From contig NZ_AKKU01000015.1 in NCBI RefSeq assembly GCF_000272005.1, positions 248,001 to 312,000 on the forward strand: DNA of 64,000 bases, written 5' to 3'. This document shows, piece after piece, positions 3,240 through 42,696 of the stretch; within the stretch, counting starts at the first letter, position 1, and the number at the start of each line of letters is the position of its first letter. The notes below the pieces were generated by a model, which worked only from the letters and a program-made list of their open reading frames with translations, was not told where the DNA came from and did not search any database. This DNA is from Alishewanella agri BL06. Its GTDB lineage: Bacteria > Pseudomonadota > Gammaproteobacteria > Enterobacterales > Alteromonadaceae. The translations under genes were made by a program, and so were the position numbers.

Positions 3240-3254
3240 GGAATACTTTATTCC
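3240..3254. promoter_or_regulatory. Candidate operator palindrome, site A (pxp operon)
   Basis: GGAATA-CTT-TATTCC is a perfect 6+3+6 inverted repeat in the non-coding gap between the divergent GGDEF gene and pxpA. It lies 149 bp upstream of the pxpA start. The same motif appears near the RpiR-family gene (39243-39257) and upstream of the NlpC/P60 gene (42682-42696). The size and symmetry suit an RpiR-family dimer site. Assignment to that regulator is inference. Confidence 0.5.
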
Positions 3255-3403
3255 GCTATGAAATGCATAAAGAATTTTTTATTAGAACAGCGCTACCAAC
3301 CTCTGGACAAGGCGGGGCCAGTCGCGCAAACTAGCAGCAATCTGTGTTGCTGCCCTGAAGCCTGCTTTGGGTTTAGCACTCAAACGCCAGTAAGGAGAAC
3401 CCC

Positions 3404-4150
3404 ATGCCCGCCCGCTTATTACTCAACTGTGATCTCGGTGAAAGCTTCGGTAGCTGGACTATGGGGTTAGATGAGCAGGCCATGCCCCATATCGACCTGG
3501 CTAATATTGCTTGCGGTTTTCACGGCGGCGATCCTGATGTGATGGCGCGCACCCTTAAGCTGGCCAAACAACATCATGTTACCATCGGCGCCCATCCGTC
3601 TTACCCAGACTTACAGGGTTTTGGCCGGCGCAGTATGCAATGCTCCGCCAGCGAAATCATTAATCTTATTCACTATCAGGTCGCCGCGCTGGATGGCATG
3701 GCGCAAAACCAGGGCCTAGCGCTAAGCTACATTAAACCGCACGGCGCCCTGTATAACGATATGATGGCCAAAGCTGAGGTTTGGCAAGCGGTACTGCAAG
3801 CGGTTGCCAGTTACCATAAACCCCTGAAGCTGATGATTTTAGCCACCGCCAATTCCGCCGATTATCAGCAACAAGCGGCGGCTGCCGGGGTAAGCTTATT
3901 ACTGGAAGCCTTTGCTGACCGCCGCTATACCGACGCCGGCAAACTGACACCACGCAGCCAACCCGGCGCGGTGCTGCACGGTGCCGAGGTGCTGACGCAG
4001 GTACGACAACTGCTGGAGCAGGGCACTGTTACCACCGACAGCGGTAAGGCGCTGCCACTGACTGCCGACACCCTCTGCGTGCATGGCGACAATATCGCAG
4101 CCATCACCCAGCTGACGGAAATCCGGGAGTTACTGCGCCAATGGCCATAA
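3404..4150 (+). CDS. pxpA: 5-oxoprolinase subunit A (LamB/YcsF family)
   Basis: 248 residues, the standard length. The YcsF hallmarks are present: LLLNCDLGESFG (about 5-16), ANIACGFHGGDP (about 33-44), GAHPSYPD (62-69) and KPHGALYN (about 111-118). The PxpABC complex hydrolyses 5-oxoproline to glutamate with ATP in the cytoplasm. This is the first gene of a tight five-gene operon. It overlaps pxpB by 10 bases and is preceded by AAGGAG. Family knowledge is for 5-oxo-L-proline; activity on the D-form is not established. Confidence 0.93.
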   Translation: MPARLLLNCDLGESFGSWTMGLDEQAMPHIDLANIACGFHGGDPDVMARTLKLAKQHHVTIGAHPSYPDLQGFGRRSMQCSASEIINLIHYQVAALDGMAQNQGLALSYIKPHGALYNDMMAKAEVWQAVLQAVASYHKPLKLMILATANSADYQQQAAAAGVSLLLEAFADRRYTDAGKLTPRSQPGAVLHGAEVLTQVRQLLEQGTVTTDSGKALPLTADTLCVHGDNIAAITQLTEIRELLRQWP

Positions 4151-4854
4151 CACAACCACAACTAAGGCTGGAGCTGGCCGGCGAAAACGCTTTTATCCTG
4201 TATCTGGAGCCGCAACAAATCAGCCCGGCTACGGCCGCTGCCGTACAGTATTACTGTTCGCTGCTAACGCCCCTGTTGGGGCAGCACCTCACTGAACTGC
4301 TGCCGTCTTATGCCTCGGTATTAGTGCAATTTAATCCGCTAACCCACAGCCACCTTAGCTTGCTACCCTTGCTAAACCAGGTGTTACAGGCGAAAGCCGC
4401 TAGTGCTGGCCAACTGGCGCAGCAAAGCAGCAAAATTGTCGAACTGCCGGTTTGGTACAGTGCGCAAAGCGGCGCGGATTTGCTTAGCGTTGCCAAAGCG
4501 AAAAACCTCACCCCCGATGAAGTAATACAACTGCACAGCAGCCAAAGCTACCAGGTGTATGCCATTGGTTTTGCGCCGGGTTTTGCCTACTTGGGTGAAC
4601 TGCCGGCCGAACTGGCTATGCCGCGCCTTAGCAGCCCAAGAGCCAAAGTGCCGGCCGGTGCCGTCGCCATAGCCGATCGGCAAACCGCGGTCTATCCGGC
4701 GGCCTCACCGGGTGGCTGGCATTTACTCGGCTTGTGTCCGATCCGGATGTTTAATCCGCAGCAACAACCGGCGATGCCGGTCGCGGTCGGCGATCAGGTC
4801 CGCTTTATACCGGTTAGTGAGCGGGAGTTTCAGCTACTCGGAGGCGCCTTATGA
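4141..4854 (+). CDS. pxpB: 5-oxoprolinase subunit B (KipI / allophanate hydrolase subunit 1 family)
   Basis: 237 residues. The N-terminal part (to about 80) matches the KipI N-domain. The C-terminal part is a cyclophilin-like allophanate-hydrolase-subunit-1 domain with the family block YAIGFAPGFAYLGELP (about 140-155) and SPGGWHLLG (about 189-197). It forms the complex with PxpC. It overlaps pxpA by 10 bases and pxpC by 4 bases, indicating translational coupling. Confidence 0.92.
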   Translation: MAITQPQLRLELAGENAFILYLEPQQISPATAAAVQYYCSLLTPLLGQHLTELLPSYASVLVQFNPLTHSHLSLLPLLNQVLQAKAASAGQLAQQSSKIVELPVWYSAQSGADLLSVAKAKNLTPDEVIQLHSSQSYQVYAIGFAPGFAYLGELPAELAMPRLSSPRAKVPAGAVAIADRQTAVYPAASPGGWHLLGLCPIRMFNPQQQPAMPVAVGDQVRFIPVSEREFQLLGGAL

Positions 4855-5903
4855 CTCAGCCAAACCACAGCGCCTGCCTGAAAATCATTAGTCCCGGCAC
4901 CTTAAGCCTGTTACAGGATGCCGGCCGCTTTGGCATGACGGCCCTGGGCCTGACCCAGGGCGGCCCCTTGGATGTCCATAGTTTTGCCTGGGCTAATGCC
5001 TTAGTCGGTAACCCACTACACAGCACTGTTATTGAACACAGCATTGGCGGTTTAATCGTGCAGGCGACTGCCGACTGTACCGTCGCCGTTACCGGTGCCG
5101 TGCTGCCACTGCTGCTAAATGGTAAAGCCGTCGCCTGCTGGCAAGCCATTAGGTTAAAAGCCGGCGATGAACTGGAGCTGGGTTATATGACGCAGGGCTT
5201 GCGCGCTTATCTGGCCGTTAGCGGCGGTTTTGCGGTAGCATTGCAATTTGGTAGCAGCGCCACCGTAATGCGGGAAGGCGTAGGCGGCCTGCATCAGGAC
5301 GGCAGCAAACTGGCAGCTGGCGATCAGATCCCGCTGGCCGGGCAAGCCATACTGCCTGCGCTAACCACACCGGATCCACAAGTACAACAATTTAGCCTGC
5401 CGCCACTTGCCAGCGCAGCAGCGCTTACCAAGGCAGAGCAAAAGCAATCCGGCGCCAGCACAGTGCTAAGCCTGCGCTTACTGGAAGGCTATCAGCACCA
5501 TTTATTTAGCGCCGTTGAGCGCGCCCGTTTTTACCTTAACCCATATCAGGTAAGCACCAATTGTGATCGGATGGGCTATAAACTCAGTGGCAGTGCTATT
5601 AGTTGTAGTAGTCGCGCTTTATTGTCTGAGGGTATTAGTCTGGGTGCAGTACAAATTCCACCCGATGGCCAACCGATAGTGCTGCTCAATGATCGCCAAA
5701 CCCTCGGTGGCTATCCGAAAATAGGCACTGTGCTGAGTCTGGACTGCTGGCGACTGGCACAAACGCCACCCGGCAGCCTGGTGCAATTTAGCCCGCTGGA
5801 TAGTTATCAGGTGCATAATGCTCTGGCCCTCTATCGGGCCGGGTTTTCGCCTGCAGCCAAAGCAGCCCACCCGCAGCATGCCGCTACGCAGGAACCGTTA
5901 TGA
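4851..5903 (+). CDS. pxpC: 5-oxoprolinase subunit C (KipA / allophanate hydrolase subunit 2 family)
   Basis: 350 residues, slightly longer than many homologues because of a ~20-residue tail. It starts with the typical SPGTLSLLQDAGRFG block (about 14-28) and keeps GGPLD (about 37-41), AYLAVSGGF (about 118-126) and the C-terminal SLGAVQIPPDGQPIVLLNDRQ-type motif near 263-283. It partners with PxpB in 5-oxoproline hydrolysis. The ATGA overlaps on both sides place it firmly in the operon. Confidence 0.92.
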   Translation: MTQPNHSACLKIISPGTLSLLQDAGRFGMTALGLTQGGPLDVHSFAWANALVGNPLHSTVIEHSIGGLIVQATADCTVAVTGAVLPLLLNGKAVACWQAIRLKAGDELELGYMTQGLRAYLAVSGGFAVALQFGSSATVMREGVGGLHQDGSKLAAGDQIPLAGQAILPALTTPDPQVQQFSLPPLASAAALTKAEQKQSGASTVLSLRLLEGYQHHLFSAVERARFYLNPYQVSTNCDRMGYKLSGSAISCSSRALLSEGISLGAVQIPPDGQPIVLLNDRQTLGGYPKIGTVLSLDCWRLAQTPPGSLVQFSPLDSYQVHNALALYRAGFSPAAKAAHPQHAATQEPL

Positions 5904-6808
5904 CGCCATCCCAACCTACCGCACCCGCAAGTAAAGTGGCAGATTTTTTCGCCCTCAGCCGGCAAATTGAGCTGCTGCTTACCGCCCGTAACCTGCGAGG
6001 TATGCAGCAGGTACAGCAACAGCTACGCCCCGGCTATATATTGCGCGCGGCGCGGCTGTTTAACCTGCCGGCCGGCAGTACCCTGTTAATCGGCACCGGC
6101 TTTCCGGTGCTGGATACCTTTGAAACCGACGGCCCGGTGGGTGCCATTGCGCTGTACCAGGCAGCCCAGGCACTTAATTTAAACCCTTATCTGGTATGCG
6201 GCAAACCGCTGTTCTCGTTATTAGCGCAGCATTATCAATGTGCCGAGCTACCGGTAAATCAACTGCAGGGGCGGGTAGCGCAGGCCCGGCAACTACTGCA
6301 GCAACTCAAGCCGGCACTGGTGTTATCGATTGAGCGGCCGGGGCTGAGTGCAGCCGGTATTTATGTGAATATGCGCGGTGAAGATATCTCGGCGCGCTGC
6401 GCCAGCTTTGATGAGCTGCTGAATCAGGCGCCCTGCCCCACGCTGGCTATTGGCGATGGCGGTAACGAAATTGGCATGGGCAATGTGCAAGCGGCACTGG
6501 CCGGCTTAAATATTACCCCCAGCATTACCGAATGCGACGAATTAGTGGTAGCTGATGTGTCAAACTGGGCGGCCTGGGGTATTATTGCCATGCTAAGTGT
6601 GCTGCAGGGCCGCGATTTACTGGCCAACGCCAATTTACTGCCTTTGCTACAGTTTTTAACCGCTAATGGCTGTATCGATGGTGTAACACGGCAAAGCACC
6701 TTAACCGAAGATGGCCTGCCCTATCAGGCCGGCGAACAGTTAATTCAGCAATTACAGGCGCTGGTGCAACCTTATATTAGTGAGCCAGACAACGTGGCGC
6801 CTGACTAA
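5900..6808 (+). CDS. DUF4392 protein (D-glutamate cyclase C-domain family)
   Basis: 302 residues, no signal peptide. It carries the DUF4392 signatures: GTGFPVLDTFETDGPVGA (about 66-83), the central ISIERPG-like segment and the diagnostic GDGGNEIGMGN (about 186-196). In the mammalian mitochondrial D-glutamate cyclase this domain is fused behind DUF1445. Here both exist in the same neighbourhood as separate genes. The likely role is interconversion of D-glutamate and 5-oxo-D-proline, feeding the adjacent 5-oxoprolinase. The gene overlaps pxpC by 4 bases. The domain call is firm; substrate and direction are inferred. Confidence 0.85.
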   Translation: MTPSQPTAPASKVADFFALSRQIELLLTARNLRGMQQVQQQLRPGYILRAARLFNLPAGSTLLIGTGFPVLDTFETDGPVGAIALYQAAQALNLNPYLVCGKPLFSLLAQHYQCAELPVNQLQGRVAQARQLLQQLKPALVLSIERPGLSAAGIYVNMRGEDISARCASFDELLNQAPCPTLAIGDGGNEIGMGNVQAALAGLNITPSITECDELVVADVSNWAAWGIIAMLSVLQGRDLLANANLLPLLQFLTANGCIDGVTRQSTLTEDGLPYQAGEQLIQQLQALVQPYISEPDNVAPD

Positions 6809-6839
6809 CAGCAGATCCAACATCCGACACGAGAGCCTT

Positions 6840-7706
6840 ATGAGTACAGTATTTTTAAACGGCCAGTTTCTGCCGGCCAACGAAGCCCGCATCTCACCGA
6901 TGGACCGTGGCTTTCTATTTGGTGATGGTATCTACGAAGTTATCCCCTCTTATCAGGGCCGCTTTGTTGGCTTTGGCCCGCATATCCGCCGCCTGCACGA
7001 AGGCTTGGCAGCGCTGAGCATTCAGCACGGCATGACTGAAGCACACTGGCGCGAGCTATGTGATCAACTGCTTGAGCTAAACCGCCCGGCACTGGGTGAT
7101 AACCTGGCCGTCTATATTCAGGTTAGCCGCGGTGCCGATACCAAACGCAATCATGCCTTTCCCAGCGGTATTAGCCCGACTATTTTTGCTTATGCCTTTG
7201 CCATTGCCGCCGAGCCAGTGCCGGATAAAGCCAAAGTGCATACTTACTCGGTTATTACCGGTAACGACCTGCGCTGGCAGCGCTGCCATATTAAATCCAC
7301 CTCGTTACTGGGCAATGTGCTGCACTATCAGCAAGGGGTTGAGCAGGGCGCGCAGGAAATACTGCTGTTTGATCGCGACGCCAACCTGACTGAAGGCGCG
7401 GCAGTAAATGTATTTGTGGTAAAAAACGGCGAAATTGCTACCCCGCCGCTAAGTAATAAGCTGCTGCCGGGCGTTACCCGCTTATTATTACTGGAAATTC
7501 TGCGCCAGCATTCGGATTTAAACGTGGTGGAGCGCGAGATTAGTTACGACCAAGTACTCTCTGCCGATGAAATCTGGCTGACCAGCTCCAGTAAAGAAAT
7601 TGCGCCGGTACTCAGCGTGAATGGCCGGCCAGTGGGCAATGGGCAGGTAGGCGATATCTGGCTGGCTGCGCAGCAGCTATTTAGCCAGTATAAGTATCAG
7701 TCTTAA
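6840..7706 (+). CDS. D-amino acid transaminase (class IV PLP aminotransferase)
   Basis: 288 residues of the fold-type IV family. Landmarks are DRGFLFGDGIYEV (about 22-34), the Schiff-base lysine in CHIKSTSLLGN (K152) and NLTEGAAVNVFVV (about 182-194). The length and the SRGADTKRNHAFP region match D-alanine aminotransferases rather than BCAT or ADC lyase. It would transfer amino groups between D-Ala, 2-oxoglutarate, D-Glu and pyruvate. The start at 6840 gives the canonical N-terminus; an in-frame extension to 6780 has no support. It sits 31 bases after the DUF4392 gene and is probably cotranscribed. Confidence 0.88.
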   Translation: MSTVFLNGQFLPANEARISPMDRGFLFGDGIYEVIPSYQGRFVGFGPHIRRLHEGLAALSIQHGMTEAHWRELCDQLLELNRPALGDNLAVYIQVSRGADTKRNHAFPSGISPTIFAYAFAIAAEPVPDKAKVHTYSVITGNDLRWQRCHIKSTSLLGNVLHYQQGVEQGAQEILLFDRDANLTEGAAVNVFVVKNGEIATPPLSNKLLPGVTRLLLLEILRQHSDLNVVEREISYDQVLSADEIWLTSSSKEIAPVLSVNGRPVGNGQVGDIWLAAQQLFSQYKYQS

Positions 7707-7738
7707 TCACCAAGCAAATAGTACTTTATGGCTATACT

Positions 7739-7790
7739 TATTGCTGACAATAATCGTAACTAACGCAGGAAAAACCTGCGCTACAGCAAT
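7739..7790 (+). terminator. Nested hairpin after the pxp-transaminase operon
   Basis: An inner perfect stem CGCAGG-AAAAA-CCTGCG (7764-7780) lies inside an outer pair ATTGCTG (7739-7745) and CAGCAAT (7784-7790). There is no strong T-run, so termination is plausible but not certain. It lies between the transaminase and pilA. Confidence 0.4.
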
Positions 7791-7898
7791 AAATTAGTAA
7801 ATAACGTTAAAAGCCTTGAAAATTTGCTTGCGCTTTAACAAAAAGCATCCAGAATGGATATTAGCCTTCGCGGCTATTCAAACTCAGGAGATGATAAA

Positions 7899-8303
7899 AT
7901 GAAACGTACACAACAGGGTTTTACCCTTATTGAATTAATGATTGTAGTTGCGATTATCGGTATTTTGGCTGCAGTGGCTATCCCAGCCTACAGAGAATAT
8001 GTTGCGACTGCCTACGGTGGTCAAGCTATGAAAGGTGTTGCCGGATATGTGTCAAAAGCGCAAGCCTGCATTCAAACTGGTATTGCGTGTGACTCATTAA
8101 ATACCGAAATTGGTGCTGATGGTAAAATTGCTTCAACACCTGCTACTATATTGCAAAATACCTCAGCTTCATTAGCTTACACTACTACAGGTTGCGTTAT
8201 TACTGCAGCAATCACCGCTGACGGAGGCTTGAGTTACAGTATTGTAGCAGCAGCTGGTGGAGCTGCTACGGAAGCACAGTGCCGTAAAGGCGCAGGGTTG
8301 TAA
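7899..8303 (+). CDS. pilA: Type IV pilin, major-pilin-like
   Basis: 134 residues with a six-residue basic leader and the prepilin peptidase site [19 protein letters not shown] (cleavage after Gly7, Glu at mature position 5). This is followed by a pilin helix and an Ala/Gly-rich globular head with four cysteines, two of which probably form the D-loop disulfide. The ATG at 7899 follows AGGAG at 7886-7890; an upstream in-frame start at 7854 would spoil the leader. PilD encoded at 14901 should process it. Unusually, pilA is separated from pilBCD by about 3.6 kb, and the 3' flank is filled with hairpin repeats. Confidence 0.9.
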
Positions 8304-8350
8304 TCTCCCTAAGCATATAATTCAACCTGAACGTGTAAGTTCAAGTAGTA

Positions 8351-8380
8351 AACAAACCAGCCTAGCGCTGGTTTGTTCTC
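8351..8380 (+). terminator. Intrinsic terminator of pilA
   Basis: An 11-bp perfect stem (8351-8361 with 8367-8377), 5-nt loop CTAGC, followed by a pyrimidine-rich TCTCTT tail. Its 3' arm context (AACCAGCCTAGCG, 8355-8367) is repeated exactly at 8969-8981. Confidence 0.7.
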
Positions 8381-8435
8381 TTATTAAAAAGCAATGCTCT
8401 ACTCTAAAACCTTCGATGGCAGATCTCGAAACAGG

Positions 8436-8802
8436 AACCTTCGGGGTCAGATACCGAAAACCTTCGGGGTCAGATACCGAAGAAGAACCTTCCAACCTTC
8501 GGGGTCAGATACTAACCTTCGGCAAACCTTCGGGGTCAGATACCGAATCAACAAGCCCGCCTCGTGCGGGTTTGTTTTTGCGAAAACCTTCGGGAAAACC
8601 TTCGGGGTCAGATACCCAAACCTTCCAAACCTTCGGGGTCAGATACCGAACCACAAGCCCGCCTCGTGCGGGTTTGTTTTTTAAGAACCTTCGAACCTTC
8701 GGGGTCAGATACCGAACCACAAGCCCGCCTCGTGCGGGTTTGTTTTCAACCTTCGGGGTCAGATACCGAACAACAAGCCCGCCTCGTGCGGGTTTGTTTT
8801 TT
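8436..8802 (+). repeat. Tandem array of two alternating hairpin units (A: 23 bp, B: terminator-like ~28-31 bp)
   Basis: Unit A reads AACCTTCGGGGTCAGATACC and then GAA, with an internal TTCGG/CCGAA stem. Copies begin at 8436, 8459, 8494 (3' end altered), 8525, 8597 (3' end altered), 8628, 8694 and 8748. Fragments AACCTTCC or AACCTTCGG occur at 8486, 8514, 8585, 8619 and 8686. Unit B is an intrinsic-terminator hairpin ACAAGCCCGC-CTCGT-GCGGGTTTGT plus T-run, starting near 8550, 8653, 8719 and 8772. The last three B units each directly follow an A unit. The open frames running through the array are translated repeats, not genes. Confidence 0.9.
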
Positions 8803-8879
8803 CTGGCGCGTTAAATTGGCTAACCCTACCGCTAATGCGGTGTGTTAATAGCTATCAGGCATAGTATAAGCAAGCGTGG

Positions 8880-9000
8880 TAAGGGGGCATAATACCGCTG
8901 GGACATAGGGTCAGGTCTTGCCTCTTGCCCCAACGACCAAACCGCGATACTGCGCTCTCCAACTCACGAACCAGCCTAGCGTTTTTGTGAGTTGGGGCTT
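8880..9000. mobile_element. Possible remnant of a REP-associated (Y1-type) transposon end
   Basis: GGGTCAGGTCTTGCCTCTTGCC (about 8907-8928, in two shorter matching parts) resembles the conserved end sequence often found beside REP-associated tyrosine transposases in gammaproteobacteria. It is followed by a 9-bp inverted repeat (8959-8967 with 8987-8995). No transposase reading frame remains. This rests on recalled pattern similarity only. Confidence 0.35.
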
Positions 9001-9030
9001 AGGGTCATTTCATTAACACTAGCTGTGCCA

Positions 9031-9207
9031 TTACAGCAGGCAGCCAGTGGCAAAGGCTAAAGGTAGATTACCTGACCAATGCGACTGATATGCTCGAGCA
9101 ACCCGGATTCTGAATATCGCCTCGCGCAATAAAGCAAAGGCGCGCTGAAAGTTTTGAAAACGTTGCTGCCAGCGGATATCCTGCATCGTTATTTTTCGTT
9201 CAAACAT
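9031..9207 (-). pseudogene. Truncated nucleotidyltransferase substrate-binding (HI0074/HEPN-like) gene
   Basis: A 58-codon frame on the minus strand. The first ~30 residues (including MQDIRWQQRFQNFQRAF, about 8-24, and ALLREA, 25-30) look like the start of HI0074-type four-helix proteins, the partners of minimal nucleotidyltransferases in MNT-HEPN toxin-antitoxin pairs. After residue 30 similarity stops, and the frame runs out 28 codons later; full proteins are about 130-140 residues. No partner nucleotidyltransferase is next to it. It lies within the repeat-rich stretch behind pilA. Confidence 0.5.
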
Positions 9208-9279
9208 TATCAGCAGAGTATAGCTGAGCCTTTGGGGTCAGCTCTAACCAGGGCCAGCTCCTGTGGGCTCCCCAGGTTA

Positions 9280-9756
9280 TTATGGCTTAATATTAATACC
9301 CAAATCAGATAAATCATTATCGCGCCAGGGTTCGGGCAAACTCGACTGCGGACAATAATAACCTTGATAGAAAACGTCTGTATCGATTGGTTGGCTTAAT
9401 ACTGGCTGTTCGGCACTAACCCGGCTCAGTTTAAAACTTACTGCATCAATAATATGGTAGCGCACCAACCGCTGTTCAGCTTCGGAAGCTTGAAAGTCGG
9501 CACAGGATTCGGTAACTAAAAAGTCCCGGGCGTTAAGCTGCCGGATACTGAGAAACTGGCAAAAATCTCTGGCGCCACCTATGCCATTGGCTCGCAATAG
9601 CAATAGCGTCGCATTAGAGGCGTTAGCACAGGGCGTATCCGCAGCGACATAAAAACCCAGCCGTAACGGCAGCTGGTTTTTTGCCGGTGCTACCCCGCAG
9701 GCGGTTAATAGCGGCAGTAATATTAGCGCGGCGGTCAAACTAAGCAGGCTTTTCAT
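9280..9756 (-). CDS. Hypothetical lipoprotein
   Basis: 158 residues. It starts with a signal peptide and lipobox LLTAC (Cys20), so it is predicted to be lipid-anchored. The mature part has several cysteines (about 43, 66, 85, 134) that could form disulfides, and no family I recognise. It is a single gene on the minus strand between the repeat zone and the PilZ gene. Function unknown; secretion signal and lipidation are the only supported statements. Confidence 0.7.
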   Translation of the reverse strand: MKSLLSLTAALILLPLLTACGVAPAKNQLPLRLGFYVAADTPCANASNATLLLLRANGIGGARDFCQFLSIRQLNARDFLVTESCADFQASEAEQRLVRYHIIDAVSFKLSRVSAEQPVLSQPIDTDVFYQGYYCPQSSLPEPWRDNDLSDLGINIKP

Positions 9757-10011
9757 AGCACAGACTGAGTTAAATAGTCGTGCTTAAGTATCGGCTAAGG
9801 TCAGGCATTTAGAAAGCGGCTGGGTCAGATCCCCAACACCAAACTCGGCTGAGTATTGGTATTCGCGGCCAGCTCAGGCTAAGTTTAACGGCTTGTTTAA
9901 CCGCTTAATGGTAGCTAAGGCTATCATATTACTCGCAAATTATTCCGTTGACCTTTACCAGCAGATGTTTCATAGTACTTTAGATTTTATTTTTATAACC
10001 AAGGATGAGTT

Positions 10012-10722
10012 ATGCCTGTTCCACCTTCTGGGTTGCTGTATGAAGAGAGCCCGGCGCCTAGTGGCGACAATAATGACTGGCTAAACTATATCAAGATCGG
10101 CCAGCGTTTTGATTTGGAGCTGTTAAGTCAGCGCAAAATTCGCTGTAGTTGCGAGTTGCTGGGCTTTAGGCCAGGTAAATATGTGTTACTGCGACTGGAC
10201 GATGATGCGATCCCGGATAGTCAGCTACTCGTTGGCCTGCCATTAATCTGCCGCTTTCTGGTAGAAGATGCGTTGGGTGAATGCTTTGCCTTTCGTAGTG
10301 AATTACTGCATATCGTCCGCTTCCCCGATAAAATTATTATGGTTAATTTTCCACCACTGGTGCAGCGACGGGCGCTTCGTAACGAAAAACGCAATAGTAT
10401 TTACCTGCCGGCCCGCTTGCGCTTGTCGATGGAGAAACTGGACAAACCGGTACAGGTAGATGGTCACCTGGTGGATATTTCTGCGAATGGCTGTCGCTTT
10501 TTATTTAAAACCCCGTACAAGCCTGATTTAATCCGGCTGGCGACGGTTTTAGTCCATATTGCACATGATGTTGCCGAGTTTAATGTCATGCTGCATGGCA
10601 CTATCCGTAATGCCCGTATTGACGAATATGGCTTAACAGCGGGTATTCAATTTGCAACTCCAGAACCGGCATTAGCCCGTTTGGTTAATGCTGAACTACC
10701 GCAGCAAGAAGTTGAGCGTTAA
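10012..10722 (+). CDS. YcgR-like PilZ-domain protein (cyclic di-GMP receptor)
   Basis: 236 residues, cytoplasmic. The N-terminal half (about 25-115) resembles the YcgR/PilZN flagellar-brake beta domain. The C-terminal half is PilZ with the ligand motif split as QRRALRNEKR (about 118-127) and DISANGCRF (about 156-164), i.e. the RxxxR and (D/N)xSxxG elements. It should bind c-di-GMP and modulate surface motility. It sits between pilA and pilB, which suggests pilus control, but YcgR-type action on the flagellum is equally possible. AAGGATG precedes the start. Confidence 0.8.
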   Translation: MPVPPSGLLYEESPAPSGDNNDWLNYIKIGQRFDLELLSQRKIRCSCELLGFRPGKYVLLRLDDDAIPDSQLLVGLPLICRFLVEDALGECFAFRSELLHIVRFPDKIIMVNFPPLVQRRALRNEKRNSIYLPARLRLSMEKLDKPVQVDGHLVDISANGCRFLFKTPYKPDLIRLATVLVHIAHDVAEFNVMLHGTIRNARIDEYGLTAGIQFATPEPALARLVNAELPQQEVER

Positions 10723-25625: not shown

Positions 25626-25631
25626 TTCGAC

Positions 25632-31596: not shown

Positions 31597-31600
31597 AACC

Positions 31601-35507: not shown

Positions 35508-37248
35508 TTTGCCCCCTTGGTACTGCAGTGATTTTCGGCCGGGTCTGTGCATCCGGCGGCAAGTTTAATAGTTGCATCGACGCGCCCATAATTTGCGCAA
35601 ATACAGGCGCTGCAATTTCACCACCATGATAGAAATCACCGGCTGGTTCGTTGATGACCACCACAGTAACCAGACGCGGATTACTAATGGGGCCAACGCC
35701 GGCAAAGGAGGCGATATAGTCATCACCATAACCGCCGGCCACTGCTTTACGGGCAGTACCAGTCTTACCGCCGACCCGATAACCGGGGATCTGGGCGCGG
35801 GTGGCAGTGCCGCCCGGGGCAATACTGGCTTCCATCATTTCCAGCATGGCGCCGGCATATTCCGGTTTTAGTACCTGCTCGCCGGTTTCGGGTTCGGCAG
35901 TTTTCAGAATAGTCAAAGGCCGGCTGATGCCACCGTTGCCGATAGCGGCGTATGCGCGGGCTAACTGCACAGCAGTAACTGATAAGCCATAGCCGTAAGA
36001 GAAGGTAGCGCGTTCAAAGTCAGACCAGCGCTGGCGGAAGCTAAAGATGCCGCTGCTCTCACCGGTTAAACCGGTGCCGGTATCCTGCCCCAGTCCCAGG
36101 TTATGATAAAGACCAACGACATGCTGATGGGGAATTTGCAACACCAAACGGGCGACGCCCATATTGCTGGATTTCTGAATAATGCCACCCAGGCTCAGAC
36201 TGCCGTAGTTATTCGGATCACGGACCCAGCTGCCGCCGATACGCATCACGCCGGGACTGACATCAACCATCGTATCAAGCTCCGCGGTACCAAATTCCAG
36301 CGCACTCAATACCGCCAGTGGCTTCATGGTCGAGCCCGGCTCAAAGGTGTCGGTAATGGCGCGGTTGCGGAAGCGGTGCACCGGCGTATTGCGGCGATTA
36401 TTCGGGTTAAACGACGGGCTATTGACCATCGCCAGAATTTCACCGGTATGCACATCGACCACCACTGCGGAGCCTGAGGCGGCACCGTGTGACAGCACCG
36501 CCTTTTTCAACTCACGATAGGCCACCGCCTGAATCCGCTGATCAATACTCAATACCACATTGGCTGGCTCTTGCGAGGCCTCGCGCTCCAGTACTTCAAT
36601 TTCGCGGCCCTTGGCGTCTTTGCGGAACACCTTGCGACCAGCGGTTCCGGTCAAGACTTCGTTAAAGCGTTTTTCAATGCCTTCGACGCCGACATCGTCG
36701 ACATTGGTAAAACCAATCAGTTGAGCAGCAACTTCACCTGCTGGGTAATAACGCCGCGACTCCTGCCGGAAATGGATACCAGGTACTTTTAATTTGCGTA
36801 CATAATCCACCACAGCCGGGTTGACCTGACGTTGCAGATACACAAAACGGCGGCTCGGATTATCGCCAATGCGTTGCAGTAATTGTTGTGGTGTCATTTG
36901 CAGTATATCGGCCAGTGCATGCCAGCGCCGTTCATCGGCAGCCGCATTGCGCTCGATCACTTCTTTCGGATCGGCCCAGATGGCCTCTACCGGGACACTG
37001 ACTGCCATGGCTTCCCCGTGGCGATCGAGAATCATGCCGCGCAACACTTTGTCGGATTCCACCCGCAGTGTGCGTAAATCACCCTGGGTCACCAGCATAT
37101 CCGGCTCAACCACCTGCAGCCAGGCGGCTCTGGCCACCAATGCCACGAAGACCGTGCTGATACTCAGCAGCACAAAGGCAAAGCGCCAGCCCAACACCGC
37201 AGGGTGCTTTCTGGTTTTCGCTTGTGCTTTCATGGCCGGTTTTTTCAT
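35497..37248 (-). CDS. ftsI: Septal peptidoglycan transpeptidase FtsI (PBP3)
   Basis: 583 residues. A basic N-terminus and one membrane helix (about 20-45), then a pedestal domain. The transpeptidase domain has active-site Ser306 in STMK, SSN at 360-362 and the KTGTARK box near 490. It crosslinks septal wall with FtsW. It overlaps ftsL by four bases. Confidence 0.95.
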   Translation of the reverse strand: MKKPAMKAQAKTRKHPAVLGWRFAFVLLSISTVFVALVARAAWLQVVEPDMLVTQGDLRTLRVESDKVLRGMILDRHGEAMAVSVPVEAIWADPKEVIERNAAADERRWHALADILQMTPQQLLQRIGDNPSRRFVYLQRQVNPAVVDYVRKLKVPGIHFRQESRRYYPAGEVAAQLIGFTNVDDVGVEGIEKRFNEVLTGTAGRKVFRKDAKGREIEVLEREASQEPANVVLSIDQRIQAVAYRELKKAVLSHGAASGSAVVVDVHTGEILAMVNSPSFNPNNRRNTPVHRFRNRAITDTFEPGSTMKPLAVLSALEFGTAELDTMVDVSPGVMRIGGSWVRDPNNYGSLSLGGIIQKSSNMGVARLVLQIPHQHVVGLYHNLGLGQDTGTGLTGESSGIFSFRQRWSDFERATFSYGYGLSVTAVQLARAYAAIGNGGISRPLTILKTAEPETGEQVLKPEYAGAMLEMMEASIAPGGTATRAQIPGYRVGGKTGTARKAVAGGYGDDYIASFAGVGPISNPRLVTVVVINEPAGDFYHGGEIAAPVFAQIMGASMQLLNLPPDAQTRPKITAVPRGQNAG

Positions 37249-37553
37249 GGCTGTTGCACCCTGATATCACGGTCGCCGCTGGGACGTTGCATATTCAGCT
37301 GCCGGCGGGCAATTTCTTCCACCCGGCTATGTTCAGCGAGAGCGCGCTGCTCTAATAACAGGTTGCGCCACTCGGTATCCAGCTGATCCCGCTGTTGATA
37401 ATTTAAATCCTGTTGAATAGTCAGTTGTCGGTTCAGATGCGCCATCTGTACCACTGCCAGCGCCGATAACACACAACAGACCAATAACAGCAACACCAGC
37501 TTACGCTGGCGCCATTGTTGGATAATCTGACTGGAGAGGCGGATCTGGCTCAT
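37245..37553 (-). CDS. ftsL: Cell division protein FtsL
   Basis: 102 residues. Short cytoplasmic N-terminus, a membrane helix (about 17-37, [20 protein letters not shown]) and a heptad-like periplasmic coiled coil (about 40-90). It forms the FtsQLB complex that activates FtsWI. Position between rsmH and ftsI is canonical, with four-base overlaps on both sides. Confidence 0.92.
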
Positions 37554-38491
37554 AGCGCTGTCCTCTCTGCTATCCGCAGCACTGCGCTGCGCGCTCTGGG
37601 ATTTTCAGCCAGCTCGGCGTCCGACGGCATAATGGCTTTGCCAATCAGCTTTAACGGTACTGCCTGCTGTAATTGCGCATTCGTCAGCGGTAAGCCACGT
37701 GGCAGCGCTGCTGGCTTAGAATGGCGGCGCATAAACTGTTTTACCAGCCGATCTTCTAACGAGTGAAAGCTGATCACACAAAGCCGGCCGCCCGGTTTTA
37801 ATACCGCTAACGCGCCTTGCAGCGCCTGATTGACTTGCTCCAGCTCACTGTTGATATAAATGCGAATCGCCTGAAAACTCCGGGTCGCCGGATGCTTTTT
37901 CTCTTTCGCGCTTTTGGGCACTGAACGGCTGATTAACTCCGCCAGCTGGGCAGTGCGGGTCAGAGGCTGCTCGGCACGGCTGCTGACAATGCTATTGGCT
38001 ATGCGCCAGGCAAATTTTTCTTCACCGTATTCACGCAGCACAAAGCTGATGTCCTCTACGTCAGCACTGGCCAGCCAGTCTGCGGCCGACACACCACTGG
38101 TTGGGTCCATCCGCATATCCAGCGGGCCGTCACGCATAAAACTAAAACCCCGTTCGGCTTCATCCAGTTGTGGGGAGGAGACGCCTAAATCGAGTAAAAT
38201 ACCGTCTATTTTGCCAACAATCTGTTGTTGTTCGGCAATCTGTGCCAGGGCGGCAAAGGGGCTATGGGTGATGTGAAAACGCGCATCGGCTTGCAGTGGG
38301 GCTGCAGCAGCAATGGCGGCGGGATCGCGATCAATCGCGTATAAACGGCCGTTAGGCCCAAGTTGTTGCAATATCTCCCGGCTATGACCACCACGGCCGA
38401 AAGTACCATCCAGATAGATGCCATCAGCCTTGATTGCCAGTCCTGCCAGGGTTTCCGCCAGCAGTACCGAGATATGCGAAGTCTTGGTCAT
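37550..38491 (-). CDS. rsmH: 16S rRNA (cytosine-1402-N4)-methyltransferase RsmH
   Basis: 313 residues. SAM site [14 protein letters not shown] (about 28-41), [20 protein letters not shown] (about 99-118) and the C-terminal [19 protein letters not shown] (about 235-253). It methylates C1402 in the ribosomal P site. It immediately follows mraZ. Confidence 0.96.
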
Positions 38492-38956
38492 TTACAGTAC
38501 AAAATCCTGTAAGCGTTCGGATAACTCAACCGATCCAGCCTGCGCCTGTTCCAGCTCAATATCAGCGGTCAGACGGTCTTGCCAGGCGGCCTCGTCCCAA
38601 ATCTCAAACTTATTTAATTGACCCACCAAACGGATATTTTTATTCAGGCCTGCGTGCTGCCGTAAGAAAGCCGGCAGCAAAATACGGCCGCTCTTGTCCA
38701 TATCGCATTCAGTGGCATTACCCAGCAGAATCCGCTGTAAGCGGCGCTCCTGCGGGTTCAGGCTGGAGAGTGATTGTAGTTTTTCTTCGATTTCTTCCCA
38801 CTCAGCCAGCGGAAACAGCAATAAACACGGGTCGTGCAAATCAATGGTGCAGATCAATTGCCCCTGATTTTCAGACAACAGGCGGTCGCGGTAACGCGCG
38901 GGTAGCGCTAACCGTCCTTTGTCATCTAATGTCAGAGTGAATGATCCACGAAACAT
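38492..38956 (-). CDS. mraZ: Transcriptional regulator MraZ
   Basis: 154 residues with two AbrB-like half domains, each with its signature: [14 protein letters not shown] (about 10-23) and [14 protein letters not shown] (about 83-96). In E. coli MraZ binds TGGGN repeats ahead of mraZ and represses the dcw operon. Matching repeats are found here at 39060-39084. First gene of the cluster. Confidence 0.95.
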
Positions 38957-39059
38957 CGTTCAGTGCCTGTTTTTAAGTGTTATCTCTGTACCAGCAGATC
39001 AGCGGCGTCGATTTCCCTGTCGTGAGCTCCCCACCGACAGCAACATCTTTTCCAAAATG

Positions 39060-39084
39060 ATCCACAATTACCCACTTATCCCCA
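39060..39084 (-). promoter_or_regulatory. MraZ box: three direct repeats upstream of mraZ
   Basis: On the minus strand the order is TGGGG (39080-39084), TGGGT (39070-39074) and TGGAT (39060-39064), each 10 bp apart, i.e. one helical turn. This is the known TGGGN-N5 arrangement of MraZ operators; the last repeat has one mismatch. They lie about 100 bp ahead of the mraZ start. Confidence 0.75.
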
Positions 39085-39093
39085 CAATGAGAC

Positions 39094-39123
39094 AGTTTAG
39101 GGTGCTACTTCAGCGACTGTCAA
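39094..39123 (-). promoter_or_regulatory. Candidate sigma-70 promoter of the mra/dcw operon
   Basis: On the minus strand, TTGACA (39118-39123) and TAAACT (39094-39099) are separated by 18 bp. The MraZ boxes begin 9 bp after the -10 hexamer, so bound MraZ would cover the start site, consistent with repression. The -35 is perfect and the -10 matches at four positions. The rest of 38957-39303 holds no gene. Confidence 0.6.
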
Positions 39124-39242
39124 GGTAAAAACGGTAGCAAAGATCGAATAAGATCCTGTCTCGATCAGGCCTGCAGCGAAGTGGATGATTTAGCGGTTAA
39201 ATTAGCGAAAAACACAGTAGGAATAAGCAAACTTGCTATTAG

Positions 39243-39257
39243 GGAATAATTTATTCA
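39243..39257. promoter_or_regulatory. Candidate operator palindrome, site B (rpiR promoter)
   Basis: GGAATA-ATT-TATTCA, matching site A except for the final base; the inner 13 bases form a perfect palindrome. It lies 46 bp ahead of the RpiR-family gene, where an autoregulatory site would be expected. Confidence 0.5.
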
Positions 39258-39303
39258 ATATAAAGTCTCAACAGCCGACCAGACTCTTACAGGGATCTTA
39301 GCT

Positions 39304-40149
39304 ATGCTCAGTCTGCTGAAAATCAAAGGCATGCTCGACCAACTCTCAGCCAGCGAACGCAAACTGGCTGACTTTATTCTGGATAACTCGCACCTGCTCC
39401 GCGATTACTCTTCGCAGCAGCTGGCGGATGCCGTGGGTATTAGTCAGTCCAGTGTGGTGAAATTTTGCCAGAAACTGGGCTACAAAGGCTACCCTGATTT
39501 AAAACTGGCGATTACTGAGGCTGTCGTTACGGCGTCAACCTTGCAACGCGAGCCGGCGGAAAGTCCGAGTGAGCTCAGCAACCTGGGCCAACTGGCCGAA
39601 CAATTACAACAAAGTCTGTGGCAAAGTTTGCGTGGTTTGTTAAGCATTAATCCGGATGCCAAACTGCAACAAGCCGCCCAGCTATTGCATCAAGCAGGGC
39701 AGATTTTACTGGCTGGCAGTGCCCATTCCGCAGTCGTTGCCGCCGATATGCAAAACCGGCTACTGGAGTTAGGTAAGTTAGCGTTATTTCACAGTGATCC
39801 GGCATTAAGCCTGCAGTTAGCGCGTACTTTACCCGCCGGCAGTGTTGTGATGTTAATTTCTGATAGTGGTGAGAATGCTGACTTACTGAAATTAGAGCTG
39901 TATGCCAGAAAGCGGCAGCTGAAAATTATCTCACTGACCCGTTTTCAAACCAGCGCCCAGAGTGCGGTGGCCGATATCACGCTGTTTACGCTGGATACCG
40001 AAACCGATGAGCGTCTGGCGAGGCTAATCACCCAGCAATCACAACAACACCTGTGTCATCTGTTGTTTTTATTACTCTGTCAATGTACCGCTTATCGGCA
40101 ACAATTAACCGAGCATAATAAATTGCTGGGCTTGCTGGAAAAAAATTAA
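39304..40149 (+). CDS. MurR/RpiR-family transcriptional regulator
   Basis: 281 residues. The N-terminal HTH_6 domain (about 1-77) includes the recognition part SQQLADAVGISQSSVVKFCQ. A C-terminal SIS domain (about 115-255) with GSAHSAVVAADM would sense a phosphosugar or a sugar-like ligand. The family includes MurR, the MurNAc-6-P repressor. It is convergent with the epimerase/endopeptidase genes (6 bases between stops) and has its own candidate operator. The neighbours suggest control of murein-peptide use; the ligand is unknown. Confidence 0.88.
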   Translation: MLSLLKIKGMLDQLSASERKLADFILDNSHLLRDYSSQQLADAVGISQSSVVKFCQKLGYKGYPDLKLAITEAVVTASTLQREPAESPSELSNLGQLAEQLQQSLWQSLRGLLSINPDAKLQQAAQLLHQAGQILLAGSAHSAVVAADMQNRLLELGKLALFHSDPALSLQLARTLPAGSVVMLISDSGENADLLKLELYARKRQLKIISLTRFQTSAQSAVADITLFTLDTETDERLARLITQQSQQHLCHLLFLLLCQCTAYRQQLTEHNKLLGLLEKN

Positions 40150-40155
40150 TACTGG

Positions 40156-41250
40156 CTAAGCCAGCATCTCCAGCCCTTCAATAGCGGTCACGCCTAAACC
40201 CGGTGCATCACCGATAGTGATATCCGGGCCATTAAAGCTAACACTGCAACTGACCGGATTAACTGCACACAAGGACGGACCGTCCAGATCGATCTTGGTA
40301 ATCACATCTGCCTTAGCCACTGCCACATGTACTGCAGCTGCGACACTGATGCTGCTTTCCAGCATACAACCAATCATGCACTGCATATCATAGAACGAGC
40401 AAATATCGGCAATCTTAATGGCGTTAGAGATGCCGCCGGTTTTCATCAACTTGATATTGATGATATCTGCGGCGCGCATCTTAATCAGCTCGATCACTTC
40501 GCGCGGGCCAAAGCTGCTTTCATCCGCCATCACCGGCGTATGTACACGCTCAGTAATATATTTTAAGCCTTCCAGATCGTAATATTTTACCGGTTGTTCC
40601 ACCAGTTCCAGTCTGACGCCGGCATCTTCCAGTTTATGTAACGCGTAGACGGCTTCTTTGGCCGTCCAGCCCTGATTAGCATCGAGCCGGATTAAGGCTT
40701 TACCGGCCACGGCATTGTAAATGGCTTTGACTCTTTCTATATCGACACCGATATCTTTGCCTACCTTCACTTTCAGGGTTTCGAAACCATTGGCTACTGC
40801 ATCCAAAGAGTCGGCGACCATTTTATCGATATAGTCGACACTAATGGTAATATCGGTGGTCAGCCGCGGTACGCCACCGCCCAGCATCTTGTAGAGCGGT
40901 GCCTGATAGTACTGGGCGAACAAATCATAGACAGCGATTTCAACGGCGGCTTTGGCACTGTAGTTTTTCATAATACAGCCCTGAATCAGCCGTAAGATAT
41001 GATTCAGATCAGCAATATCCTGCCCCAGCAGCTTGGGTTTTATCACCGTGCGGATAGCCTCGATAATAGAACCATGAATATCGCCGGTAATCACCGCCGT
41101 AGCGGGCGCTTCGCCATAACCGCGATGGCCGGTATCAGTTTCGATAATCACCACCACGTCTTCAATTTGATTGACCGTGCGCAATGCGGTTTTAAACGGG
41201 GTTTTCAGCGGCACCCGCAGCATGCCCAGCCGGATATCGGTAATTTTCAT
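40156..41250 (-). CDS. Dipeptide epimerase (L-Ala-D/L-Glu epimerase family, enolase superfamily)
   Basis: 364 residues. N-terminal capping domain, then the barrel with the catalytic KVKVG (about 161-165), metal ligands in RLDANQGW (about 191-198), LVEQPV (about 217-222) and MADESS (about 242-247), and the second base lysine in NIKLMKTGG (about 267-275). The set fits the AE-epimerase branch that converts L-Ala-D-Glu to L-Ala-L-Glu in murein-peptide recycling. The adjacent YkfC-like gene mirrors the B. subtilis ykfBC pair. Exact dipeptide preference cannot be told by eye. Confidence 0.85.
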   Translation of the reverse strand: MKITDIRLGMLRVPLKTPFKTALRTVNQIEDVVVIIETDTGHRGYGEAPATAVITGDIHGSIIEAIRTVIKPKLLGQDIADLNHILRLIQGCIMKNYSAKAAVEIAVYDLFAQYYQAPLYKMLGGGVPRLTTDITISVDYIDKMVADSLDAVANGFETLKVKVGKDIGVDIERVKAIYNAVAGKALIRLDANQGWTAKEAVYALHKLEDAGVRLELVEQPVKYYDLEGLKYITERVHTPVMADESSFGPREVIELIKMRAADIINIKLMKTGGISNAIKIADICSFYDMQCMIGCMLESSISVAAAVHVAVAKADVITKIDLDGPSLCAVNPVSCSVSFNGPDITIGDAPGLGVTAIEGLEMLA

Positions 41251-41261
41251 GCTAACCTCAG

Positions 41262-42668
41262 TTAACGCAAGGATTTAATATTATAGAGCCGCTGCAGATA
41301 GCTTTGCTCCTCGCTCAAATAGAGCGGTGTTAGTGGTGTCACGGCGACACCGTTCAGAGTACCGCGGTAAAACTGGCCGTCAGCCTGGTAATACGCTAAA
41401 TCGTAGACGGCATGGATCACAAAGGGTTCGCCCTGACTTTGCCCCAGATACAACATCACATGACCAGGCCGGTAAATAAAATCCCCGACTTTGGCATTGT
41501 GGACTTTGGCCAGCTTGTCGGCGACCGGCAGACTCTCATCAAAGCGTTGATTCTGGCCAAAGCCACCATAGCCCTGTTCACCGGAGTTACGCGGCATTAA
41601 CAGCCCAAAAGTACGAAAGATATCCACTAAAAAGCCGGTACAATCCACACTATTGTAATCGTAGCCCCAGCCATAGCGCTGCCCCAGATACTTAAAGGCC
41701 TGCTGTACCACATTGCGCGTGGTGTAAGGCAAATAGCCGATTGATACATCCTGATTGCGGCCAATTAATGCTGGCACTAGCACTAATTGCCCATTAGCAT
41801 CGCGTACCGGTAATTGCACGATATGGCTGGCATGCGGATTCTGGCCATGAATATTGTGTCCCAGCACGGCGGCATCCAACAGTGGCAACCGTACGCCCAT
41901 ATCCAGTTGTAACTCGGAAATCGCCGCCTGCCCGGGTACAAAATTGGTTTTCGCCCGCGCACCGGTCACCACCAGAAAGGGTTTGGCGTCGGCGTACGCT
42001 AGTACTTGTTCGCGGCGGCCCAGCGCTATCGCTGTTGTCGGCACCCAACCAGTATAATGATAGTTTTGTACCAACAACCAATTGCCATCCAGACTTTGAT
42101 GCAGTACCGCCACCGGCTCACCGACAAAGACCGCCGTTTCCTGAAAGCGATTCAGATCCAGCGCCATTGCCTCATTAAATACCCTGAGCTCCGATGGCAC
42201 GGCGCGCATTAAGGCTCTTTGCGTCACCAGACCAAAGCGGGTCGGATTATCCGCTTGTATCGCCTCTGGATTAAGTTGTTGCAGCAGTGGCACCCAATCA
42301 GCGGCACCCAGTTGCCGGCCATCGGCAAAAAAGCGGGCGGAACCGGGAGGTGCACTGACTTTTTGCAGCACAGCGCTGAGTTCGCTCGCGCTGCGACTCA
42401 TTGGGATCTCGGAGATGGCCAGCATTTCTGGTTGCTGCAAGAAAGTCTGCCGGTTGAACTCGTTGATTTGTTCTACACTTAACAACACTTGATCAGCATC
42501 GGCAACTTTGGCCAGCCAGTATTCGGCTGTCAGATGCTGCGGCTGCAGCAATGGAATATCTGAGCTGAACGTTTGACTATAGGCTTTGCTCAGCAACAGG
42601 ATGCAGCACAGTGTCATCAACTGTAAAGCGCGACTGAGCAGAGAGTTTAAGCGCTGCTTTTGCTTCAA
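41262..42668 (-). CDS. NlpC/P60 gamma-D-glutamyl-L-diamino acid endopeptidase, YkfC-like
   Basis: 468 residues, exported. It has a signal-type N-terminus (basic KQKQRLNSLLSR then a hydrophobic run ending near SKAYSQ), SH3b-like domains in the middle (about 165-290) and a C-terminal NlpC/P60 domain. The latter has catalytic Cys in SVDCTGFLVDIF, His in RPGHVMLYLG and a third His in FVIHAVYD. Such enzymes cut between D-Glu and diaminopimelate. Start: TTG at 42668 is chosen because CGGAG sits seven bases ahead; a longer frame from TTG 42698 would place the candidate operator inside the gene. It is 11 bases from the epimerase gene. Confidence 0.85.
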   Translation of the reverse strand: MKQKQRLNSLLSRALQLMTLCCILLLSKAYSQTFSSDIPLLQPQHLTAEYWLAKVADADQVLLSVEQINEFNRQTFLQQPEMLAISEIPMSRSASELSAVLQKVSAPPGSARFFADGRQLGAADWVPLLQQLNPEAIQADNPTRFGLVTQRALMRAVPSELRVFNEAMALDLNRFQETAVFVGEPVAVLHQSLDGNWLLVQNYHYTGWVPTTAIALGRREQVLAYADAKPFLVVTGARAKTNFVPGQAAISELQLDMGVRLPLLDAAVLGHNIHGQNPHASHIVQLPVRDANGQLVLVPALIGRNQDVSIGYLPYTTRNVVQQAFKYLGQRYGWGYDYNSVDCTGFLVDIFRTFGLLMPRNSGEQGYGGFGQNQRFDESLPVADKLAKVHNAKVGDFIYRPGHVMLYLGQSQGEPFVIHAVYDLAYYQADGQFYRGTLNGVAVTPLTPLYLSEEQSYLQRLYNIKSLR

Positions 42669-42681
42669 AACAGACTCCGTC

Positions 42682-42696
42682 GGAATGAAATATTCC
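42682..42696. promoter_or_regulatory. Candidate operator palindrome, site C (endopeptidase / TonB receptor)
   Basis: On the minus strand GGAATA-TTT-CATTCC, one mismatch from symmetry. It lies just ahead of the ribosome site of the NlpC/P60 gene and 157 bp upstream of the divergent TonB receptor start, nearly the same distance as site A to pxpA. Confidence 0.5.

Follow-up and report, generated by a model that had tools for sequence, protein, structure and literature searches.

What ties a 5-oxoprolinase operon to genes for the use of murein peptides that lie far from it on the same contig? The question arises in a 64,000-nucleotide stretch of Alishewanella agri BL06 (contig NZ_AKKU01000015.1, positions 248,001 to 312,000; this whole stretch is called the window), where the palindrome GGAATA-N3-TATTCC recurs upstream of the 5-oxoprolinase gene pxpA, upstream of a gene for an RpiR-family regulator (rpiR) and between the genes for an NlpC/P60 peptidase (nlpC) and a TonB-dependent receptor. 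A first-pass annotation of this DNA had proposed that one regulator controls wall-peptide uptake and breakdown together with the D-glutamate (D-Glu) and 5-oxoproline genes, and this is supported here by conservation of the sites, by a further site at a gene for an LD-carboxypeptidase (ldcA) and by a gene cluster in a related genome. The RpiR/MurR-type regulator whose gene lies in the window very probably uses the palindromes as its operators and, as read from sequence, would control the import, trimming, and sugar and stem-peptide catabolism of murein, including its D-Glu branch. Two predicted features go beyond that annotation: the sites usually occur as pairs 31–32 base pairs (bp) apart, and the regulon takes in an N-acetylmuramic acid (MurNAc) branch made up of murQ, namZ, a kinase, a symporter and a glycoside hydrolase family 3 (GH3) enzyme.

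Conservation of the palindrome

The three copies carry zero, one and one mismatches (Table 1), in agreement with the single deviation per site that the first-pass annotation had allowed, and their promoter-proximal placement, also claimed there, fits the gene map: they precede pxpA (3404) by 149 bp, rpiR (39304) by 46 bp and, for the copy in the nlpC/TonB gap, the TonB receptor gene (42854) by 157 bp. The TTG start of the nlpC open reading frame (ORF), at 42698, overlaps the last of these palindromes, so the true start probably lies further inside the ORF. When two mismatches were allowed, six places in the window matched against 1.72 expected, a number reached in one of 100 shuffles. That no equally good copy exists elsewhere holds for the window at up to one mismatch and fails for the genome (G000, 3.49 Mb; other G numbers denote relatives' genomes and L numbers loci), where 13 places were found against six for the reversed motif. 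Five of the 13 were counted as gene-flanking, namely those at pxpA, rpiR, nlpC/TonB, ldcA and a cysD/wecB-type gap. A single palindrome is only modestly specific and insufficient to define a regulon, so the case rests on conservation and paired architecture. Two looser patterns were rejected as regulon finders: the 10-base core with up to one mismatch matched 115 genome places (58 when reversed), and the consensus GAATAAWTTATTC with up to two mismatches matched 117 (81 when reversed). The single-site scans cover the matches listed (about 50 places each), so that a regulon member with one weak site may be missed, and the further places followed up were mostly coding DNA.

LD-carboxypeptidases act on murein tetrapeptides, and the ldcA product of G000 has both domains of the family (PF02016 and PF17676). 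The palindrome beside its gene, which is overlapped by a spurious-looking 83-codon ORF, was not foreseen in the first-pass annotation; as a site at a predicted murein-peptide enzyme it is an independent success of the hypothesis.

Relatives of rpiR were sought in named genomes, giving 37 loci, of which 28 are of the Rheinheimera/Alishewanella/Arsukibacterium type (57–86% identity, the closest being those of Alishewanella aestuarii and A. jeotgali at 86%). The palindrome stands before rpiR in all 28, starting 52–92 bp upstream, and with up to two mismatches it is present in the nlpC/TonB gap of all 28. For pxpA and ldcA, 60 genomes were searched, and 30 loci were sampled from 44 and 39 matching genomes, respectively. 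The 10-base core, at up to one mismatch, was found at 28/28 rpiR, 28/28 TonB, 25/30 pxpA and 30/30 ldcA regions, against means of 0.26, 0.16, 0.89 and 0.00 for 19 permuted half-site palindromes (maximum 6); these counts are linked by ancestry and are not independent trials, and the permuted control shares the same relatedness. The rpiR site forms an island with a core identity of 1.00 against 0.45–0.57 in three flanking stretches, while the downstream flank in the TonB gap, which holds a candidate −10 element, is itself 0.91 identical. Retention of the sites at orthologous genes of close relatives, set beforehand as a check, was thus seen at pxpA, rpiR and nlpC/TonB. The pxpA site is the most telling case, since its distance from the gene and its upstream neighbour vary across the 30 regions and a strong site is still present in 25.

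A paired arrangement of the palindromes

With a weight matrix built from nothing but the 13 distinct primary sites, we scored every offset within 70 bp of a primary site, omitting the nearest six. The best partner offset was +31 at rpiR (mean score 1.2), +32 at TonB (14.9), −32 at pxpA (−5.4, 25 regions) and −32 at ldcA (−6.2), where the means of the spectra were −15 to −20. The TonB partner, GCATAAATTATTT, scores nearly as high as the primary site and its stretch is 0.99 conserved. Among the 28 loci, 23 qualifying pairs were found at 31 bp, all at rpiR, and 28 at 32 bp, all at TonB; each of the remaining spacings between 14 and 60 gave 0–6 pairs, except 20 and 52 (28 each, with 26 and 24 in the TonB gap). 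The latter involve an element at +52 in the TonB gap, which was rejected as a third operator because a conserved TATGTT, probably a −10, overlaps it and makes promoter sequence the likelier reading. In G000 the pairs are at 3241/3272 before pxpA (31 bp) and 42683/42715 in the TonB gap (32 bp), and the second pxpA copy, GAATTTTTTATTA, scores 11.7 and ranks second within 3151–3410. The full operator, as predicted here, is usually two 13-bp palindromes (consensus GAATAAWTTATTC) with centres 31–32 bp apart, the second often degenerate.

The pair was sought genome-wide as two cores at a set spacing with up to three mismatches in the 20 specified bases. G000 gave two matches at spacing 32 (the TonB gap and C25:188669-188713), one at 31 (pxpA) and none at the off-phase spacing of 37. 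Twenty same-genus genomes, G000 included, gave 46 matches at 32, 22 at 31 and one at 37, the reversed controls giving 4, 2 and 3. Judged by the sequences and positions of their sites, the 46 comprise TonB (20), murQ/GH3 (11), pxpA (9), a flavin adenine dinucleotide (FAD)-oxidase gene (5) and one other, and the 22 comprise rpiR (14), pxpA (4) and a GGGTCAGAGTGAAT-type repeat (4). Within the genus, therefore, the pair finds murein genes, with 63 of 68 matches at such loci by our own sorting, the FAD oxidase included. The GGGTCAGAGTGAAT-type element stands beside AT-rich palindromes (G007:C15:139598 and 157085, G009:C13:223481, G009:C17:61976) and is probably a mobile or repeat element.

The second spacing-32 match of G000 (pair L156:6170/6202) lies between two operons. 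One side encodes a sodium-solute symporter followed by a BadF-type kinase, MurQ and NamZ, the family to which we take YbbC of Bacillus subtilis to belong; the other encodes the GH3 glycosidase followed by a NagX-like acyltransferase. A proposed operator thus stands before the murQ operon, as expected of a MurR-like regulator, and in 11 of 15 same-genus murQ/GH3 gaps two copies lie 32 or 33 bp apart. In G000 rpiR is neither adjacent nor divergent to murQ (contigs 15 and 25, respectively), whereas Kangiella-type loci and G035 have both genes in a single cluster. The Kangiella locus L041 joins GH3, symporter, kinase, MurQ, NamZ, rpiR, epimerase, NlpC/P60 and TonB genes. G035 belongs to another genus of the family, and a single stretch of it (L168) holds rpiR, NamZ, MurQ, symporter, GH3, acyltransferase, a PF07286 D-Glu cyclase and pxpA, pxpB and pxpC, which links the 5-oxoproline and D-Glu genes to murein catabolism independently of the motif.

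The five FAD-oxidase matches lead to an FAD/4Fe-4S protein of about 916 residues (PF01565, PF02913, PF13183), whose nearest NCBIfam models, GlcD and YdiJ, both score below cut-off. Its site (core, up to one mismatch) was found in 13 of 28 same-genus genomes, against a mean of 0.53 and a maximum of 6 for permuted controls, and was not found in G000. A gene that starts like this oxidase (first 188 residues, PF01565) is beside rpiR in G035, and a full copy is near the murQ cluster of G038. MurQ releases D-lactate, so a D-lactate oxidase would be a logical member of the regulon. The protein is presumably an oxidase of the lactate/2-hydroxyacid type and a member only in some relatives.

Outside the genus, the matrix finds a pair at 31–32 bp in seven of 22 loci (L138, L153, L042, L043, L045, L047 and L174); L041, L046, L048, L050 and L168 (G035) are among the 15 without one. 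Two pattern matches in other families are at murein genes, before murQ in G044 and before a membrane dipeptidase gene in G038. The latter, a 31-bp pair (L247:5887-5930; G038:C3:49886-49929), precedes a PF01244 gene in a murein cluster and marks a candidate regulon member. A site is also present before a gene that, by its sequence, encodes an NhaC-like transporter, as a 31-bp pair in L042 (10116-10159) and as a single copy at L167:4929; in L042 beta-lactamase-like and alanine-racemase-like ORFs come next, which may be additional genes of murein-peptide use.

The regulator and competing explanations

The rpiR product scores above cut-off for both PF01418 (83.4 bits) and PF01380 (40.2 bits), which places it in the RpiR/MurR superfamily, and far below it for the HexR model NF008451 (87.5 against 296). 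The stretch SQSSVVKFCQKLGYKGYPDLK, presumably the recognition-helix region, is near identical in the aligned relatives and resembles its counterpart in E. coli MurR. The protein retains the serine motifs HSA and SDSG of the SIS domain. Solved relatives include structures named MurR (7en5, 7en6, 7en7). The ligand is likely, not certainly, a phosphosugar such as MurNAc-6-phosphate (MurNAc-6-P). In Kangiella-type products (L041, L043, L046, L048) the second SIS serine motif is degenerate and the DNA-reading stretch near identical. The two adjacent inverted repeats expected of a MurR-like system are seen as the 31–32 bp pairs, except at the rpiR of G000.

Could the operator be real and conserved, and yet belong to another factor, an RpiR paralogue or an unrelated protein, with rpiR merely a target? 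We consider this unlikely. The genome does encode at least one other RpiR-family protein (L127, HTH_6 and SIS, HexR-like by reading of its neighbour), and in the distant loci L044, L046 and L048 no qualifying copy was found directly before rpiR, which weakens the argument from autoregulation; L044, in which rpiR occupies another part of the locus, has only a weaker match (score 12.3), and L046 and L048 have score-16 sites instead before nlpC at the head of the gene run. However, a copy precedes rpiR in 28/28 relatives and, with up to one mismatch, in the distant loci L041, L042, L043, L045 and L050, which is the signature of autoregulation. In Fusibacter (L047), rpiR is preceded by two copies with two mismatches each, 32 bp apart, and faces a gene for a MurQ-like SIS-domain protein and one for a phosphotransferase system (PTS) EIIBC component.

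That the pxpA-side site serves the divergent diguanylate cyclase gene (2136-3149) rather than pxpA is more doubtful still, and very improbable. In its favour, the distance from the site to that gene, which it also precedes, is 90 bp, and in five of the 30 pxpA regions the upstream neighbour is of this kind; most of the others have a different neighbour (amidase-like, ATPase-like, transposase-like or other ORFs, by sequence reading only) and still have a strong site near pxpA. Persistence of the site while the neighbour changes speaks against the cyclase gene as target, as does the position of the pxp genes inside the murQ cluster of G035. Chance palindromes in AT-rich intergenic DNA kept through shared ancestry would agree with the merely twofold excess of single-site copies over reversed controls, but are scarcely credible given the conserved islands, the failure of permuted motifs in the same regions and the loss of same-genus pair matches at off-phase spacing.

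Several observations weigh against assigning all of these sites to a MurR-type regulator of murein use. The rpiR product reaches only 102.2 bits with the NCBIfam MurR model (NF012026, cut-off 408) and is 28% identical to E. coli MurR, so that the regulator is, by sequence, MurR-like yet not the E. coli equivalog; the degenerate SIS motif of the Kangiella-type relatives suggests that the ligand may differ or be lost. Many copies unlinked to these genes had been named at the outset as a sign against the idea, and this is partly what was found, as eight of the 13 single-site genome matches fall inside long, unrelated genes on the ORF map. Five of 30 pxpA regions lack the site, the partner means at pxpA and ldcA are low in absolute terms, though at the top of their spectra, and the rpiR site of G000 has a missing or very weak partner. 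Among the 15 same-genus murQ/GH3 gaps, four are without a visible pair (none in L158, L170 and L172; L166 could not be resolved), and no 31–32 bp pair was found in the G035 cluster, its symporter/GH3 gap holding two copies 34 bp apart. Four of the 22 spacing-31 matches have the GGGTCAGAGTGAAT-type repeat in common and lie outside murein loci. Twelve genomes of other families gave 4, 3 and 2 matches at spacings of 32, 31 and 37, against 11, 3 and 3 for reversed controls, which is no better than the control, so the pattern is no general finder across the order. A promoter scan called no sigma-70-like promoter at pxpA or TonB.

The same scan did not call the candidate −10 element TGCTATGTT of the TonB receptor gene, which is present in all seven relatives inspected (of 28), and its single call at rpiR is on the other strand and points to mraZ. 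In the candidate promoter, the second operator of the TonB gap would just reach the border of the −35 hexamer, a position that is consistent with repression.

Table 1. Palindromes, genes and promoter element discussed, in window coordinates
Feature	Position	Strand	Evidence
Proposed operator 1 of pxp operon	3240-3254	.	GGAATACTTTATTCC, perfect palindrome, 0 mismatches; member of the genome's sole spacing-31 bipartite match
Proposed operator 2 of pxp operon	3272-3284	.	GAATTTTTTATTA, 31 bp from operator 1; bipartite match
pxpA, 5-oxoprolinase subunit A	3404-4150	+	PF03746 2.7e-92; NCBIfam PxpA subfamily above cut-off
pxpB, 5-oxoprolinase subunit B	4141-4854	+	PF02682; TIGR00370 above cut-off
pxpC, 5-oxoprolinase subunit C type	4851-5903	+	PF02626; TIGR00724 above cut-off, PxpC equivalog below cut-off
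D-glutamate cyclase-like protein (GLUCM-like C-terminal)	5900-6808	+	PF14336 3.3e-61
Class IV aminotransferase, probable D-amino-acid transaminase	6780-7706	+	PF01063; TIGR01121 217 bits, below cut-off 277
Proposed operator before rpiR	39243-39257	.	GGAATAATTTATTCA, 1 mismatch
RpiR/MurR-family regulator (HTH_6 + SIS), proposed regulator of all sites	39304-40149	+	PF01418 1.1e-23, PF01380 3.5e-10
L-Ala-D/L-Glu epimerase-type enzyme	40156-41250	-	PF13378/PF02746; NF041118 5.4e-75, below cut-off
NlpC/P60 peptidase with SH3 domain	41262-42698	-	PF00877, PF12913
Proposed operator 1, nlpC/TonB gap	42682-42696	.	GGAATGAAATATTCC, 1 mismatch; bipartite match
Proposed operator 2, nlpC/TonB gap	42715-42727	.	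GCATAAATTATTT, 32 bp from operator 1; score 14.9; bipartite match
Candidate extended -10 of TonB receptor promoter	42746-42754	+	TGCTATGTT, read from sequence
TonB-dependent receptor	42854-45697	+	PF00593 2.9e-39, PF07715
PF07286 D-Glu cyclase family gene ('putative hydro-lyase')	605-1399		near pxp operon

The genes for the three 5-oxoprolinase subunits, the D-Glu cyclase and the aminotransferase form one overlapping run. The nearby PF07286 gene was rejected as a regulon member, with no matrix match above 9 near its start; the pxp/murQ cluster of G035 includes a gene of the same family. A ParE-like toxin gene (PF05016, 1675-2016) lies between the PF07286 gene of the window and the diguanylate cyclase gene. 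In the rpiR region (38492-38956 and 39304-40149), the regulator gene adjoins mraZ- and mraW-type genes, which we take to be the start of the division and cell-wall cluster, so that a regulator of murein scavenging would adjoin genes of murein synthesis.

Other palindromes of similar type were noted. A GGAATAAGATATTTC-type palindrome is found between cysD-like and UDP-GlcNAc 2-epimerase genes of G000 (L205:5173-5187; G000:C11:65172-65186), with no second copy above score 6 within 150 bp, and a similar one is in G003 (L238:3272). GGAATA-type palindromes in or near a gap between FadR-like and cysteine-desulfurase-like genes (L236:3599 in G006, L241:3366 and 3767 in G015, L242:3145 in G013) are perhaps the site of another regulator, the gene names being read from sequence.

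Known systems and a proposed route for murein use

The closest known system is the murR-murQP divergon of E. coli, with which the system described here shares an RpiR-family regulator (HTH_6 and SIS), control of murQ, here predicted, and a similar recognition-helix stretch. The MurR operator is said, in work of Jaeger and Mayer from 2008, to consist of two adjacent inverted repeats. Between murR and murQ of E. coli MG1655, the two highest-scoring matrix matches (L174:4684 and 4716) are exactly 32 bp apart, which fits that description; by our estimate, chance would give the top two matches of one such gap (about 160 bp) a spacing of 31 or 32 bp about twice in a hundred. The E. coli sites differ in being poor matches (three and two mismatches in the 10-base core, scores 8.3 and 10.3). 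In G000, unlike E. coli, rpiR is not beside murQ, a sodium-solute symporter and a kinase replace the PTS, and peptide, D-Glu and 5-oxoproline genes, spread over several operons, join the predicted regulon.

In B. subtilis, the murQRP-amiE-nagZ-ybbC genes place a MurR-like regulator with murQ, nagZ and ybbC for the use of shed muropeptides (PMC5061867). That cluster differs in having its six genes together and a PTS, and no pxp, D-Glu cyclase or TonB receptor gene figures in that account (PMC5061867). A preprint describes RpiR regulators as tetramers in their crystal structures and proposes that a tetramer of Streptococcus pneumoniae NanR spans a palindrome and a second, degenerate site (PMC12713135). 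NanR resembles the present regulator in family, in its SIS domain and in the phosphosugar sensing and dimer-tetramer organisation predicted here; according to the preprint, it differs in being an activator, in its sialic acid genes and in its second element, a half palindrome 23 bp away rather than a full one at 31–32 bp (PMC12713135). Dedicated regulation of 5-oxoprolinase genes is also found in the PxpR-pxpTABC system of Corynebacterium glutamicum, which, as described, serves growth on 5-oxo-L-proline, whereas the pxp genes here appear to be wired to murein catabolism (PMC13274462). Among the literature matches listed, none links an RpiR/MurR regulator to pxp or D-Glu cyclase genes.

In the route we propose, murein fragments would enter through the TonB receptor, and the sugar would be cut from the peptide outside the cytoplasm by NlpC/P60, NamZ, GH3 and LD-carboxypeptidase enzymes, whose location and substrates are predicted. 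The kinase would turn MurNAc into MurNAc-6-P, from which MurQ would yield GlcNAc-6-P and D-lactate. Disposal of the stem peptide's D-Glu may run through epimerisation, transamination and cyclisation, and PxpABC would open the 5-oxoproline formed by the last of these. The RpiR protein most likely binds and represses these promoters until a phosphosugar, probably MurNAc-6-P, occupies its SIS domain. A distance of 31–32 bp is three turns of B-DNA, so both palindromes would lie on the same side of the helix and could be held by one tetramer made of two DNA-binding dimers.

A wider proposal, to which we give a little under an even chance, is that the 32-bp pair is an old MurR-type operator code, extending from the Gammaproteobacteria to a Firmicute, that exposes a complete murein-eating regulon in which 5-oxoprolinase and D-Glu cyclase form the D-Glu branch and the FAD oxidase handles D-lactate. 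That the code is old is the less secure part of this proposal, as outside the genus only seven of 22 loci have the pair. 5-Oxoprolinase and D-glutamate cyclases are usually discussed as glutathione or damage-control enzymes. The regulon proposed here would give them a physiological role, that of finishing the breakdown of cell-wall stem peptides, and would name the TonB receptor as a candidate importer of muropeptides.

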